A DNA stretch of 47,165 nucleotides from Zetaproteobacteria bacterium CG_4_9_14_3_um_filter_54_145 (GTDB taxonomy: Bacteria > Pseudomonadota > Zetaproteobacteria > Mariprofundales > Mariprofundaceae): contig PFXI01000088.1 in the NCBI GenBank assembly GCA_002791575.1, positions 17,114 to 64,278 on the forward strand, in the 5' to 3' direction. The notes below the pieces were generated by a model. That model did not search any database. It saw only the letters and a program-made list of their open reading frames with translations, and was not told where the DNA came from. Position numbers and translations under genes: made by a program. Shown one piece after another: positions 28,157 through 37,666 of this stretch. Each line of letters begins with the position of its first letter. Position 1 is the first letter of the stretch.

Positions 28157-29278
28157 CTAGTCAGCGAGAGCAAGGCGCGAAGGTTCTGCTTTCAGCGTAG
28201 ACAGATAGGCGACAATATCTTTCGCATCCTGCCCGCAGCTGTTCTGGCTGGGCATTGTTGTTCTGGCCGTATTAGACCCGGTCAGCTCTTTCACGGCCCT
28301 GCCGGAGTTACAGACCCAGTCAGTCAGAGCGGCTTCATCCCAGCTGAAACTGGCCTGTGCCAGCGTCTTGCTATATTTATATCCCTCGGACTTGCCTGCC
28401 TGCTGGCCCAGAACACCGAAGAGGGTGGGCCCAAATTTACCCTTCTGATTCGCCTCAAATGTATGGCACAGCTGACACTTCCGGCTCAGGTCATGACCGC
28501 GCGCCACATTGGTCGCGGGTGCAGGCGAGAGCGAGGCCAGCTGTACCGGCTCGGCAGCACTACGGCTGACGCGGCTGGCAGGCTTGTGTGTGACCGAAGG
28601 GGGAGTACGTGCAAGCCTAGGTGCAGGCGAGTGATTCCGACTGGCGACAGTCCGTGGCTTGCTTGTCATGGCAGCCTTAGTTGCTACGGTCGGAGGCCCG
28701 GAGGATGCAGCCGCAGTGTCCTGATCAGCAGGGGCACCCATATCGATCGACAACGCCGCCAGCTTTTCTGCGCTGATCACATGCTTGGCCAATCTCTCGG
28801 CATCAATTTTTTCCTGCATGGCTTTACCGGCAATATCCTGCTGGATTTCCACCTGAATGCGCGCCGCCTGCAGTGCCTTGGCCTTTTCTACAACGACTTC
28901 CTCTGCCAGAGACTGCTCTAATGCCGCCTGCAGCAAGCTTGCCCGTGCCGCCTCAACCCGCTCACGGGTAAGTGCTGCCCAGCGGGCCTTGCTCTCGGCA
29001 TTTTTCTTCAACATCTCGGTCTCTTTTTCCATACCGGCGATGACCGCCCTGACTGCGGCACGCTTCACCGCAGCCTGCTGAACGGCTATCTGTTTGTTGT
29101 TGTCGGCGGTCTCGACCGCTCTTCTGGCGCCCATAGCCTGATCCACCACCGTCTGTATTTCGGCGATTTTTTTAGCCGCCATGGCATCCGGCGATTGGCT
29201 GCGCTGATCGTCCGCACTGCCGCAAGCAGTGAGTGCCCCGGCAATCATGACGCTGAAAATCCATACATATCTCTTCAT
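28157..29278 (-). CDS. Coiled-coil lipoprotein with C-terminal class I cytochrome c domain
   Basis: The 373-residue protein is a putative lipoprotein (lipobox LTAC, Cys19) with, in order: an Ala/Lys/Glu-rich coiled coil (about 33-176), a Ser/Thr/Pro-rich linker (about 185-255), and a class I c-type cytochrome domain (about 258-365) with heme-binding CQLCH at 268-272 and a distal Met342. Two extra cysteines (323 and 348) bracket the Met loop. The cytochrome resembles soluble mono-heme cytochromes c of aerobic respiration. It is expected to be exported and lipid-anchored, with the coiled coil as a spacer. No heme lyase or terminal oxidase gene is adjacent. Coiled-coil fusions to cytochrome c are uncommon; the physiological partner is unknown. 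Confidence 0.88.
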   Translation of the reverse strand: MKRYVWIFSVMIAGALTACGSADDQRSQSPDAMAAKKIAEIQTVVDQAMGARRAVETADNNKQIAVQQAAVKRAAVRAVIAGMEKETEMLKKNAESKARWAALTRERVEAARASLLQAALEQSLAEEVVVEKAKALQAARIQVEIQQDIAGKAMQEKIDAERLAKHVISAEKLAALSIDMGAPADQDTAAASSGPPTVATKAAMTSKPRTVASRNHSPAPRLARTPPSVTHKPASRVSRSAAEPVQLASLSPAPATNVARGHDLSRKCQLCHTFEANQKGKFGPTLFGVLGQQAGKSEGYKYSKTLAQASFSWDEAALTDWVCNSGRAVKELTGSNTARTTMPSQNSCGQDAKDIVAYLSTLKAEPSRLALAD

Positions 29279-29356: not shown

Positions 29357-30738
29357 TCAGGAAGGTCTGGGCAGGCGGGAGAGGCAGTCGAGTGCAGCCA
29401 GCTTGTAGCACTCCGCCAGCGTCGGGTAATTGAACACATTACTGACCAGATCATGCACAGTACCGTTAAAATGCATCAGCAGCTGACCGGTATGGATCAG
29501 CTCACTGGCCGATTCACCGACGATATGCACACCGATCAGCTTGTGTGACTGGGCATCAACAATCAGCTTTACCAGGCCTGCTGTATCGCCGATAATCTGG
29601 CCGCGGGCGGTCTCCTTGAAGTGGCCGCGCCCGACCACATAATCAAGATGCTCTTTTTTGGCCTCTTTTTCTGTTTTGCCGACCCATGAAATCTCCGGAA
29701 TGGCATAGATCGCCATCGGCAGATTTTTCGCCATCACATGCGTCTTGCCGCTAAAGGCATGCAGTACAGCGGCGCGCCCCTGCTCCATACCTGTTGATGC
29801 CAGTGCCGGCCAGCCGATCAGATCACCTACTGCATAGATATTCGCAACACTGGTCTGGAAGTCGGCATTGACGGCAATCCAGCCCTGATCCAGCTCAAGC
29901 CCGATTTTCGGGATATTCAGCCCCTGCGAGTTCGGTTCACGACCAAGGGCATAGAGTACAGCCTCGGCATAGAGTTTTTTGCCCGACTCCAGCAATGTCA
30001 GCGTGCGCCCCTCCTCTATACTCACCGCTGTCACGCGCTCGCGCATATGAAATTCAACACCCATGCCGGCAAAAGAGTCGGCCAGCACGCCAACCACATC
30101 TTCGCTGAGGTAGGCGAGCAGCTGCTCGTGTGAGTCAACAACGGTCACCTCAACACCGAGTGCGGCAAAGATCGATACGAATTCACAACCGATGACGCCG
30201 CCACCAACCACCACCAGACTTTTGGGCAGCTTTTTCAGGTTGAGAATCGAGGTCGAATCGAGCACGGTTTTTTTATCGAACGGGATGTGTGACGGACGAC
30301 GCGGTCTGGAACCGGTAGCCAGCAGAATCACATCGGCGGTAAGTAGTCTCGACGCACCGGACGAATCCGTGACCGCCAGCGTATGCGCATCAACAAAGGA
30401 GGCTTCTCCGGGAATCAGGCTGACACCCGATTTAAGCAGCCGCTTCACAATCACCGACTCCTGCTGGGTGACCACCAGATCCTTGCGCCGGACGGCCTCG
30501 GCCATAACGCCGTAACGCGCGGTACGCGAGGCCTCACGCATGCCCTGCGTACCCGTTCTGGAGGCAAGGTAAGCCGCTTCACGCAGCGCCTTGCTGGGAA
30601 TGGTGCCGGTCTGCAAACCTGCGCCACCGATGCTCGGCTTGCGCTCGATGATGGCGGCTTTTTTACCCATGCGGGCCGCCTGCCAGGCGGCGTGTTGTCC
30701 GGCAGGTCCCGAACCGACAATGAGGATATCGTAATCCA

Positions 30739-30739
<1 letters not shown>
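29357..30739 (-). CDS. sthA: Soluble pyridine nucleotide transhydrogenase (SthA-type flavoprotein)
   Basis: The 460-residue flavoprotein belongs to the pyridine nucleotide-disulfide reductase fold: FAD motif ILIVGSGPAGQHAAWQA, NAD(P)H motif VVVGGGVIGCEFVSIFA near residue 178, and C-terminal dimer domain ending NYPTLAECYKLAALD. The usual redox CxxxxC is absent: the segment is GGAGLQTGTIPSKAL, with no cysteine, and the HxxE general-acid pair of the reductases is replaced by the SthA-like N-Y-P-T. It should exchange hydride between NADPH and NAD+ rather than reduce disulfides. Its ATG overlaps the PFOR stop by one base (TAATG). Confidence 0.88.
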
Positions 30740-34323
<3,584 letters not shown>

Positions 34324-34334
34324 CGTAGCCGCCC

Positions 34335-35984
34335 CTATTCCTGAACTGCACGGTCAGCATCTTCACTGACCATCTCAATGGCATGGCACGGGCACTGCTC
34401 GAAACAGGAGGCGCAGCCGGTGCATTTGTCGTAGTCGTACGCGTAACGTTTACCTTTACCCAGCTTGATAATCGCATCTTCCGGACAGGAGCCGTAGCAA
34501 CCATCACATTCAAAGCAGTTGCCGCACGACAGACAACGCCTGGCTTCAAAGAGCGCCTCTTTTTCACTATAACCCTGCAGGATCTCCTGAAAACCGCCCA
34601 GACGCTGCTCCGGTGTAAGCTCACCCTGTGAGCGTTTCGGCGCTTCGGTACTGTACCAGAGCTGCAGCTTGTCATGTTCTACAATCGGATGTTTGGCAGC
34701 CGGCTCATAGAGATCGCCGCGCAGCCATGCATCGATATAACGGGCGGCCTTTTTACCGTGGCCGGTGGCGATGGTGACCGAGCGCTCGGATGGCACCATA
34801 TCGCCGCCGGCGAAGACGCCGGCAGCACCGGTCATCATGTTCGGCCCGACAACCACCGTGCCATCACGGTTGAATTCAATGCCCTCCACCTTCTTCAAAA
34901 AGCCGGTATCGGTCTCCTGACCAACGGCCATAATCAACGCATCGGTCTCCAGTGTCTCGGTTCTGCCTGTCGGCTGCGGGCGGCCGTTCTCGTCCAGCTC
35001 CATCACTTCAACCGTCATCGTGGTGCAGTCGATCTCCTTGATGGTGCGCAACCAGTTGATCTTGACGCCCTCTTCGATCGCCTCATCCGCTTCAAAATCA
35101 TGCGCCGGCATACTGGCGCGATCGCGGCGGTAGATGATGACAGCCTCTTCGGCACCCAGTCGCTTGGCCGTACGCGCCGCATCCATAGCGGTGTTGCCTC
35201 CGCCATAGATCGCAACCCTGCGTCCCAGCTTCAGGTCTTCGCCGTTCTCCACGCTTTTGAGGAAGCTGACCGCATCGAGCATCTTGCGTGCATCGCGGCT
35301 CGGAATATCAATATTTTTACTCAGGTGGGCACCAACCGCAACGAATACGGCATCAAAGCCGCCCTCCGTTTTCGCCTGCTCAATATCGTCGACACGGCAG
35401 TCCAGCACGATCTTCACGCCCATATCAACCACGCGCTGAATCTCCTGATTGAGCTCTTTGCGCGGCATGCGGTAGGCCGGGATGCCGAAATGGATCATGC
35501 CGCCGGCAAATGGGCCTGCCTCACGAATTTCCACTTCATGGCCAAGCCGAATCAGATGATAGGCTGCGGATAGGCCGGATGGTCCTGCACCAACAATCAG
35601 CACGCGTTTGCCGCCGGCAGGTGCTGTGAACTCCGGCTTCCAGCCTTTCTCCATCGCCAGATCGCCAAGGAAGCGCTCTACTGCATGGATACTGACTTCC
35701 TGATCGGTATAAGCACGATTACAGGATGTCTCACACGGGTGATAACAGACCCGGCCATGAATGGCCGGAAACGGGTTATTCTCCAGCAACTTCTGCCAGG
35801 CGGCCTCATATTCACCGGCCTGCGCCAGCGCCAGCCATGCCTGAATATCTTCACCGGCAGGACAGGCGTGATTACAGGGGGGCAGGAAATCCATGTAGAC
35901 CGGCTTGCGCGAGCGGTGCGCGCCGGTGCCTGCATCATGTTTGGTCATGTCCAGGTTGCCAGTCATGTATTTTTTCGAAGTCAT
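34335..35984 (-). CDS. GltD-like NAD(P)-binding iron-sulfur flavoprotein with 2[4Fe-4S] tail
   Basis: The 549-residue protein resembles the small subunit of glutamate synthase, here fused to a C-terminal two-cluster ferredoxin domain. It has an N-terminal iron-sulfur region (CNHACPAGEDI, CYHPCETSCNRAY), an FAD motif VLIVGAGPSGLSAAYHL near residue 131, an NADPH motif VAIYGGGNTAMDAART near residue 268, and the ferredoxin domain CLSCGNCFECDGCYGSCP / CTGCASCFEQCPCHAIEM. Without a glutamate synthase large subunit it most likely moves electrons between NAD(P)H and ferredoxin, serving the PFOR that starts 11 bases downstream. ATG 35984 follows GGGAGAG seven bases away. Confidence 0.87.
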   Translation of the reverse strand: MTSKKYMTGNLDMTKHDAGTGAHRSRKPVYMDFLPPCNHACPAGEDIQAWLALAQAGEYEAAWQKLLENNPFPAIHGRVCYHPCETSCNRAYTDQEVSIHAVERFLGDLAMEKGWKPEFTAPAGGKRVLIVGAGPSGLSAAYHLIRLGHEVEIREAGPFAGGMIHFGIPAYRMPRKELNQEIQRVVDMGVKIVLDCRVDDIEQAKTEGGFDAVFVAVGAHLSKNIDIPSRDARKMLDAVSFLKSVENGEDLKLGRRVAIYGGGNTAMDAARTAKRLGAEEAVIIYRRDRASMPAHDFEADEAIEEGVKINWLRTIKEIDCTTMTVEVMELDENGRPQPTGRTETLETDALIMAVGQETDTGFLKKVEGIEFNRDGTVVVGPNMMTGAAGVFAGGDMVPSERSVTIATGHGKKAARYIDAWLRGDLYEPAAKHPIVEHDKLQLWYSTEAPKRSQGELTPEQRLGGFQEILQGYSEKEALFEARRCLSCGNCFECDGCYGSCPEDAIIKLGKGKRYAYDYDKCTGCASCFEQCPCHAIEMVSEDADRAVQE

Positions 35985-36218
35985 AATGTTACTCTCCCAG
36001 TCAGGGGTGTGCGTACATTTTTCGGCAAGCAACTATAATGCAAAAAGATGCGAAAGAGTATATAAGAATCAGGGTTATTGCAGCGACCATGCCAAAGCGG
36101 CCGCACAGCCCCGCCCCGGAAGTAAGATACCCTGTCACCGTTCATCCATACCGTGATCCCTGATACCTCTTCCGCCCGGCGACTCAGCTGGCAGCCCGGC
36201 ACTCACGGCAAGAAAAAC

Positions 36219-36941
36219 TCACTGTCCGATCATGTGCACAATAATCTTGTTTGCCGGGTAGGGGCTGGAACCTTTTCTCAGCACCACACGCGCTTTACTG
36301 ACGTCAGTCAGCACCGCCAGCAGTGATTCGGCCAGGCCCTTGTAACTTTTATCGTAATAAAAAACCGTTGTCGTGTCGGCCATACTCATTTTTTCAGATG
36401 GTGCCGGATATTTCCCCTTGAACCCCTTCTCAGCCAGTGCCTGTGTCACCGCCTGCTGCAGCTCGGGCGCAATTTGTGCATTATATATATCGAGATCGAC
36501 ACTGGCAGCTGTCGCCTCAATCGGCCTTACCTTACCCCTTGTTTCGGGTTTCGCGGCTGCTGTTTTCGCACGGCTAGTGCTCGCCGCTCCGGCCGTAAGC
36601 CTGTTATCCAGGCGGCGGACCTGCGCCTCAAGGTCGCCGACACGGGTATTGGCATCGTCCAGCGCTTCGCGCAGGCGGCTGTTTTCCTGCAGCAGACTAT
36701 CCCGGCCCTTGATCGCCAGCTCGGCATCCACCAGCTGTTGAATGGTTTTCATTTTGATGTCTGTGATATCATTTTTTGCCAGCTGCAGTTGATCTTTTGT
36801 ATCCCTGAGGCTGCTTTCCAGACCGGCAAGATTATTCTGACGGTAATTGACCACACCGGACACCAGCGCGAGGACAAGTGCTGTGATGGCAATAATAACA
36901 GTAATATTTTCTGTTGGTTTGCTCTGGTTTTCTTCAGACAT
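36219..36941 (-). CDS. Membrane-anchored coiled-coil protein with C-terminal LytR_C-like fold
   Basis: The 240-residue protein has a short cytoplasmic N-terminus, one membrane helix (about 14-32), a coiled coil (about 38-112) with LQENSRLREALDDANTRVGDLE, an Ala/Lys/Thr-rich linker, and a compact C-terminal domain (about 140-240) ending PANKIIVHMIG. The last domain recalls the LytR C-terminal/SPOR-like alpha-beta folds by its TTTVFYYDKSYKGLAESL strand-helix start, but that is weak. Function is unknown. It is transcribed with, and downstream of, the OmpA-like gene, with a terminator-like hairpin between. GGAG precedes the ATG. Confidence 0.8.
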   Translation of the reverse strand: MSEENQSKPTENITVIIAITALVLALVSGVVNYRQNNLAGLESSLRDTKDQLQLAKNDITDIKMKTIQQLVDAELAIKGRDSLLQENSRLREALDDANTRVGDLEAQVRRLDNRLTAGAASTSRAKTAAAKPETRGKVRPIEATAASVDLDIYNAQIAPELQQAVTQALAEKGFKGKYPAPSEKMSMADTTTVFYYDKSYKGLAESLLAVLTDVSKARVVLRKGSSPYPANKIIVHMIGQ

Positions 36942-37036: not shown

Positions 37037-37666
37037 TTAGTTTCTTACCAGATGAATTTCAGCCCTGCGGTTTCTTTGCCGACCCGCATCTGTTGTATTG
37101 TCTGCCACATAATTACTGGCTCCAAAGCCCACTGCACGAACCACATCCTTGGCAATGCCGGCAGCAATCAGCGCCTGAGCCACATTGGTCGCGCGCGCAT
37201 GACTCAGCGCCATATTGGTCTGGTACGGGTGGCGCGATGTGTGCCTGTGGCCGGGGTAGCCGCCGATCGGCTCGTTATCGGTATAGCCGCGCACTTCAAT
37301 GGTCTGTGCCCTCGGCTTGGAGAGGAATTTTTCAGCCAGACGCTTAAGGGCACTGCGTGACTCGCGGGTCAGCTCCATATAGCCGGAGCGAAATGATACG
37401 GTGACCCATAAACGGTCTGTCGGGGCAGCCTGATCCTCTTCTGCCTGTGGACTCGACGCGGCTTTGCTGTCCGCGATCTCCTGCTTCACCTGCTTCAGCG
37501 ATTCCCGCAGGGCTGCAACCTCAGTTCCCAGCTGTTGGTTTTCACTGGCCAGCTGCTGATTCTCGGCTGGCGCTACCGGCTCATCCGGACCAAAAATAGC
37601 CTCAATGGTGCTGCAAGACGACAGCATCAGTAATAAAGCGACACACAGTAATCTAAATCTGTACAT
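37037..37666 (-). CDS. OmpA/Pal-family lipoprotein with coiled coil
   Basis: The 209-residue putative lipoprotein has a lipobox LSSC (Cys18), a short coiled coil of ENQQLASENQQLGTEV type (about 36-72), and an OmpA-like peptidoglycan-binding domain (about 85-209) with VRGYTDNEP, LSHARATNVAQAL and a terminal RQRNRRAEI, which are the diaminopimelate-contacting motifs. A His/Tyr-rich insert (GGYPGHRHTSRHPYQTN) lengthens the loop between the GYTDN strand and the following helix. It should tether the outer membrane to peptidoglycan, comparable to Pal, though no tol genes are near. GGGGAG lies nine bases before the ATG. Confidence 0.9.
   Translation of the reverse strand: MYRFRLLCVALLLMLSSCSTIEAIFGPDEPVAPAENQQLASENQQLGTEVAALRESLKQVKQEIADSKAASSPQAEEDQAAPTDRLWVTVSFRSGYMELTRESRSALKRLAEKFLSKPRAQTIEVRGYTDNEPIGGYPGHRHTSRHPYQTNMALSHARATNVAQALIAAGIAKDVVRAVGFGASNYVADNTTDAGRQRNRRAEIHLVRN

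Follow-up and report, generated by a model that had tools for sequence, protein, structure and literature searches.

Some cytochromes c, such as cytochrome cy, c552, and c553, are tethered to membranes through a transmembrane helix or through fatty acids, and the length of the linker affects electron transfer in cytochrome cy (PMC7876108). In neutrophilic iron oxidizers, published models require that electrons from Cyc2 be carried through the periplasm to the oxidases; they leave the identity of the carrier open and list many candidates for this step (PMC7029218, PMC6443915). Here, we describe a lipoprotein-coiled coil-linker-mono-heme cytochrome c encoded in a 47,165-nucleotide stretch of contig PFXI01000088.1 (hereafter, the window) of Zetaproteobacteria bacterium CG_4_9_14_3_um_filter_54_145. 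An earlier note on this DNA located the gene correctly (28157-29278) but did not state its strand, which is minus. Computational analysis revealed an anchor motif, a rod, a linker, a head, paired cysteines, varied tethers on one lineage of heads, and Cyc2 in the same genome. On this basis, we propose, with confidence evenly divided for and against, that the protein is a tethered mono-heme envelope electron carrier, anchored in the outer membrane and linking Cyc2 with the oxidases or the bc1 complex of the inner membrane. The kind of protein is already known, since linker-bearing membrane-anchored cytochromes c, including lipid-anchored ones, have been described (PMC7876108).

Results

The protein starts with MKRYVWIFSVMIAGALTAC19, a lipoprotein signal by its motif, whose lipobox cysteine is kept in 11/11 orthologs and would be acylated. 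Directly after this cysteine, at position +2, the coil proteins have Gly or Ser. The lipobox stands in place of the retained transmembrane anchor that defines cytochrome cy. Ala, Glu, Lys, Leu, and Gln abound in the segment that precedes a low-complexity linker, and the C-terminal head is recognized as a class I cytochrome c by Pfam (Cytochrom_C, PF00034, residues 259-363; 25.5 bits versus a cut-off of 21.3). The closest solved structure to the head is cytochrome c2 of Rhodospirillum rubrum (2c2c, 5.5e-14), and an AlphaFold2 (AF2) model of the isolated head had a predicted local distance difference test (pLDDT) score of 40. The 373-aa protein contains a single CXXCH motif and would therefore load one heme rather than the two of Cyc1. 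Thus, the lipid-anchor motif, coiled coil, flexible linker, and cytochrome head anticipated in the earlier note are all present, as indicated by the lipobox, ortholog constraints, AF2, and Pfam.

Full-length orthologs occur in 10 further genomes of the same genus, and two more divergent ones were identified in another genus of the same family (genomes G102 and G064); an ortholog in Mariprofundus sp. OFTM252 is ~54% identical. Residues 34-178 span exactly 145 aa, with no indels, in 11/11 same-genus sequences, and the first third of the coil has indels in G102 and G064. Pro and Gly together account for 0.6% of this segment across orthologs. Conservation along the rod follows a period of 3.50 residues (power 8.1 versus a permutation maximum of 6.1; 0/2000 permutations reach 8.1). 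Positions congruent to 6 mod 7 are overall the most conserved and most alanine-rich heptad class, and the phase of the best-conserved heptad position is maintained from one end of the segment to the other. The hydrophobicity periodicity of the rod is not above chance (168/2000 permutations), which we attribute to the alanine-rich core, and the case for a coiled coil therefore rests on conservation and length. AF2 run on a two-sequence alignment (pLDDT about 56-76) returned one helix over residues 30-178 and no regular structure over residues 179-263. Heptad conservation, register, and the continuous AF2 helix together identify the segment as a coiled coil. A helical hairpin is less likely because the heptad register is in phase throughout. 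Downstream of the rod, the linker varies between 61 and 93 aa and is 19% identical among the 11 same-genus sequences. The rod would measure about 21.5 nm (0.1485 nm/residue), and the distance between the inner and outer membranes of wild-type Escherichia coli is 30-32 nm under hyperosmotic conditions (PMC8824477).

Profile searches of the protein retrieved no family match for the coil, which was not found in any other kind of protein among 80 genomes at E 0.01. The head, in turn, has family members in 66/78 genomes of the class. Among the 122 head-family proteins that make up the fetched set, nearly all zetaproteobacterial, 51 have both a lipobox and, preceding the heme, a tether 89-263 aa in length, as assigned by a simple pattern that may miss or add a few proteins; Asp follows the lipobox cysteine in only one of these 51. 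Judged from these sequences, in-class heads are carried on several kinds of tether, of which the coil is one. The expression "new electron-transfer adaptor," used in the earlier note, is thus too strong, since tethered cytochromes are known and 51/122 in-class heads are lipid tethered. The domain order with the coil, which that note proposed to search for, was found in 11 genomes of one genus and 2 of another; lipid-tethered heads are widespread in the class. No description of the lipoprotein-coiled coil-cytochrome c order, of tether exchange, or of the cysteine pair detailed below was found in the open-access literature, a search that had most subscription journals outside its reach.

The lipid-anchored state switched at least five times on well-supported branches of the head tree, gain and loss being indistinguishable. 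The coil proteins form one clade (support 100/99), joined at 98/95 to a sister clade whose six lipoproteins pair this head with other tethers, namely AAADK-type repeats in four and Pro/Ala/Glu or mixed strings in two. Across the genomes of the genus, 11 encode the coil type, 6 the sister type, 6 neither, and none both; the chance of zero overlap is about 0.009 by a hand calculation that ignores relatedness and includes several incomplete genomes. The tether thus appears to have been exchanged between close relatives, and the simplest reading of the sequences is a single ancestral tethered cytochrome whose spacer was replaced. Coil-type and sister-type genes occupy different neighborhoods, so the replacement was no simple single-locus event. 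An old duplication with differential loss is a possible alternative to tether replacement.

The AAADK tether of genome G011 is encoded by a 15-bp tandem array of 20.6 copies with 98% matches (locus L019, 1216-1524), and similar arrays are present in L020, L021, and L025. Since the number of units differs between the genomes of the sister-clade cytochromes, tether length may change by slippage. The repeat presumably resembles the helical spacer of TolA. Near the coil cytochrome of genome G002 (L042, 2641-4338), a 565-aa protein combines SH3-like segments in several copies with a long stretch rich in Pro and Ala, a single CXXCH, and a hydrophobic helix at the C-terminus; by the look of its sequence, it is another tethered heme protein.

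The coil may have a role other than spacing. Its residues W100 and R112 and a run of alanines are invariant in orthologs, it is limited to 11 genomes of one genus plus 2 of another, and a universal stress protein gene lies beside three orthologs. These traits would suit a docking or assembly domain, for partner binding or self-bundling, on a cytochrome serving, e.g., a peroxidase, reductase, or stress role instead of iron oxidation. We regard this option as quite improbable, given that no partner gene is conserved alongside among the ortholog loci seen and that unrelated spacers replace the coil in the sister clade.

The two extra cysteines that the earlier note placed around the Met342 loop proved to be conserved and to behave as a pair. 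Cys323 and Cys348 are invariant in coil orthologs, and both are present in 94 head-family proteins and absent from 28, with no protein having a single one; the equivalent of Met342 is found in 122/122. The majority of the 28 cysteine-less proteins also lack four loop residues. Cys323 and Cys348 fall on residues 69 and 86 of tuna cytochrome c (profile alignment, with positions counted by hand). The Met80-bearing unit of cytochrome c comprises residues 70-85 (PMC12188557), and the two positions lie just outside it, where the Met80 loop has its hinges. With the loop columns excluded, the head tree assigns four changes to each cysteine, with joint change in three independent pairs, too few events for significance in a phylogeny-aware test. 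Among the cytochromes c2 fetched outside the class, none has a cysteine pair at these positions; a few have cysteines elsewhere. The genome encodes DsbA-family proteins. Because the cysteines occur jointly and sit at the hinges of the Met loop, a disulfide stapling this loop is likely but unproven.

Other components relevant to iron oxidation and lipoprotein sorting are encoded in the host genome. Elsewhere from the cytochrome gene, these include a 410-aa Cyc2 with the motif AIPAFARQTGAACLSCH, described for this protein in PMC8406198. Two full-length COX1-family oxidases and LolA are also encoded in the genome.

The genes upstream of the cytochrome gene specify SthA (Si-specific transhydrogenase), PFOR, and an NADPH-dependent Fe-S flavoprotein, which are cytoplasmic-type enzymes. 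SthA adjoins the cytochrome gene in only 5 genomes among the ortholog loci seen, the his operon precedes it in 4, and other genes occupy this place in the remaining loci. Since the genes around it vary between genomes, the idea that the cytochrome works with PFOR, SthA, or the flavoprotein was rejected, and the tie to PFOR and an "AIF-like reductase" advanced in the earlier note is not supported. The PRK12771-type flavoprotein, PFOR (a fused form), and SthA lie in a row (window 29357-36032, minus) that is kept in several genomes of the genus (L037, L039, and L041) and possibly constitutes a pyruvate/NADPH/ferredoxin module. Two further genes (36219-36941 and 37037-37666, minus) encode a coil-bearing membrane protein whose end is LytR_C-like and an adjoining OmpA-family lipoprotein with a short coil. 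An Rfam scan of the window yielded no matches, and a promoter/terminator scan found no terminator-like site around the cytochrome gene. Coordinates of the cytochrome gene and its parts are compiled in Table 1.

Table 1. Layout of the cytochrome gene and its product in the window
Feature	Position	Strand	Evidence
Whole gene, lipoprotein-coiled coil-linker-mono-heme cytochrome c, 373 aa	28157..29278	minus	Translation, orthologs
Lipoprotein signal, residues 1-19, lipobox LTA-C19, Gly at +2	29222..29278	minus	Sequence, ortholog conservation
Coiled coil, residues 34-178, 145 aa	28745..29179	minus	Constant length, conservation period, heptad register, AF2 helix
Flexible linker, residues 179-256	28511..28744	minus	Low ortholog identity, variable length, AF2 disorder
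Cytochrome c2-like head, residues 257-363	28190..28510	minus	Pfam PF00034, 2c2c match
Heme motif CQLCH, residues 268-272	28463..28477	minus	Sequence; CXXCH invariant in orthologs
Met342, presumed axial ligand	28253..28255	minus	Aligns with Met80; conserved across head family
Cys323, Met-loop hinge, mitochondrial position 69	28310..28312	minus	Alignment; paired occurrence with Cys348
Cys348, other Met-loop hinge, mitochondrial position 86	28235..28237	minus	Alignment; paired occurrence with Cys323

Discussion

The features of this protein suggest a path for electrons through the envelope. A lipid on Cys19 would anchor the protein, for which the inner leaflet of the outer membrane is the most likely site. 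From there, the 145-residue coiled coil would form a rod reaching up to about 21 nm, followed by the flexible linker, which would allow the cytochrome c2-like head to swing. The head could take electrons near the outer membrane, where the porin-cytochrome Cyc2 is the obvious donor, and deliver them at the inner membrane, either to oxidases or to the bc1 complex. By joining Cys323 and Cys348, a disulfide would staple the Met-ligand loop at its hinges and hold the Met on the iron. The occurrence of the same head on unrelated tethers in the sister clade is as expected if the coil is a spacer. The proposal is also favored by the Cyc2, oxidases, LolA, and DsbA-family proteins of the host genome and by genome G028 (L053, 4510-6734), in which the gene for a tethered lipoprotein relative of the head directly precedes cyc2 in the same orientation, at a distance of about 200 bp.

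Several observations weigh against this proposal. Placement in the outer membrane relies on the +2 sorting rule of E. coli, and the genome search turned up no LolB; the target membrane is therefore uncertain. Soluble paralogs of the head in the same genome could do the same job untethered. The conservation of the coil, including W100 and R112, exceeds the need of a bare spacer. Finally, the position beside cyc2 in G028 is the one instance in the 60 genomes that gave a Cyc2 match, and systematic adjacency to cyc2 was thus rejected for the class.

With the E. coli rule unable to fix outer-membrane sorting where LolB was not found, the protein could also be an inner-membrane lipoprotein working like cytochrome cy, i.e., its head would shuttle between bc1 and the terminal oxidase, and the rod would lift the head or hold a supercomplex. 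The two proteins share the plan of anchor, linker, and class I cytochrome c (PMC7876108), and the genome does provide oxidases. Nevertheless, an Asp at +2 occurs in only 1/51 lipoproteins, the coil proteins having Gly or Ser, and the 145-aa rod far exceeds the 69-aa flexible linker that suffices for cytochrome cy. These features render an inner-membrane shuttle unlikely.

Alternatively, a lipoprotein flipped outward might carry the heme on its arm to minerals, the stalk, or other cells; an arm reaching out from the outer membrane was already contemplated in the earlier note. Other metal-cycling bacteria do have lipid-anchored outer-membrane cytochromes that face outwards. However, the sequence bears no sign of export, and one heme on a long arm makes a poor wire; a surface-exposed cytochrome is thus very improbable here.

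A more specific version of the outer-membrane carrier, which we put forward tentatively and consider doubtful, is a trans-periplasmic arm. Its coil, anchored in the outer membrane and approaching the length of the periplasm, would bring one heme from Cyc2 to the oxidases. Tethers would be exchanged among a coiled coil, AAADK repeats that we take to be TolA-like, and Pro/Ala/Glu strings, and the loop disulfide would be special to the class.

The step from Cyc2 across the periplasm gains in this class-wide family of lipid-tethered carriers a specific and testable candidate. Furthermore, varied tethers on one conserved head amount to a natural experiment in which electron transfer across an envelope can be related to the length and stiffness of the tether. 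This protein may figure among the uncharacterized periplasmic cytochromes to which PMC7029218 assigns numbers. Cyc1 of iron oxidizers has the same proposed role of periplasmic carrier after Cyc2, but it is diheme (PMC7029218), in contrast to the one heme found here. Zetaproteobacteria also have soluble 127-aa periplasmic cytochromes near terminal oxidases (PMC5513912), whose length, one CXXCH, and signal fit the short soluble members of the head family, an identity inferred from description only; they have neither lipid anchor nor tether.

Among lipoproteins, Lpp and others share an N-terminal alpha-helical coiled coil with the present protein. In Lpp, the coil measures about 7.5 nm and is linked to peptidoglycan (PMC8824477), whereas the rod described here would be about 3 times as long and bears a cytochrome. 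Heliobacterial cytochrome c553 is likewise a fatty-acid-anchored mono-heme electron carrier (PMC7876108). It comes from another phylum, and the two proteins are compared by description, not by sequence. We know of no coiled coil in this c553. Closest in plan are cytochrome cy of Rhodobacter capsulatus and c552 of Paracoccus, which, as here, join a membrane anchor and a linker to a C-terminal class I cytochrome c of ~100 aa and act as carriers while tethered (PMC7876108). Cytochrome cy relies on a transmembrane-helix anchor and a 69-aa linker with no coiled coil (PMC7876108), whereas the zetaproteobacterial protein combines a predicted lipid anchor, a 145-aa coil followed by a linker of 61-93 aa, and a cysteine pair at the Met loop.
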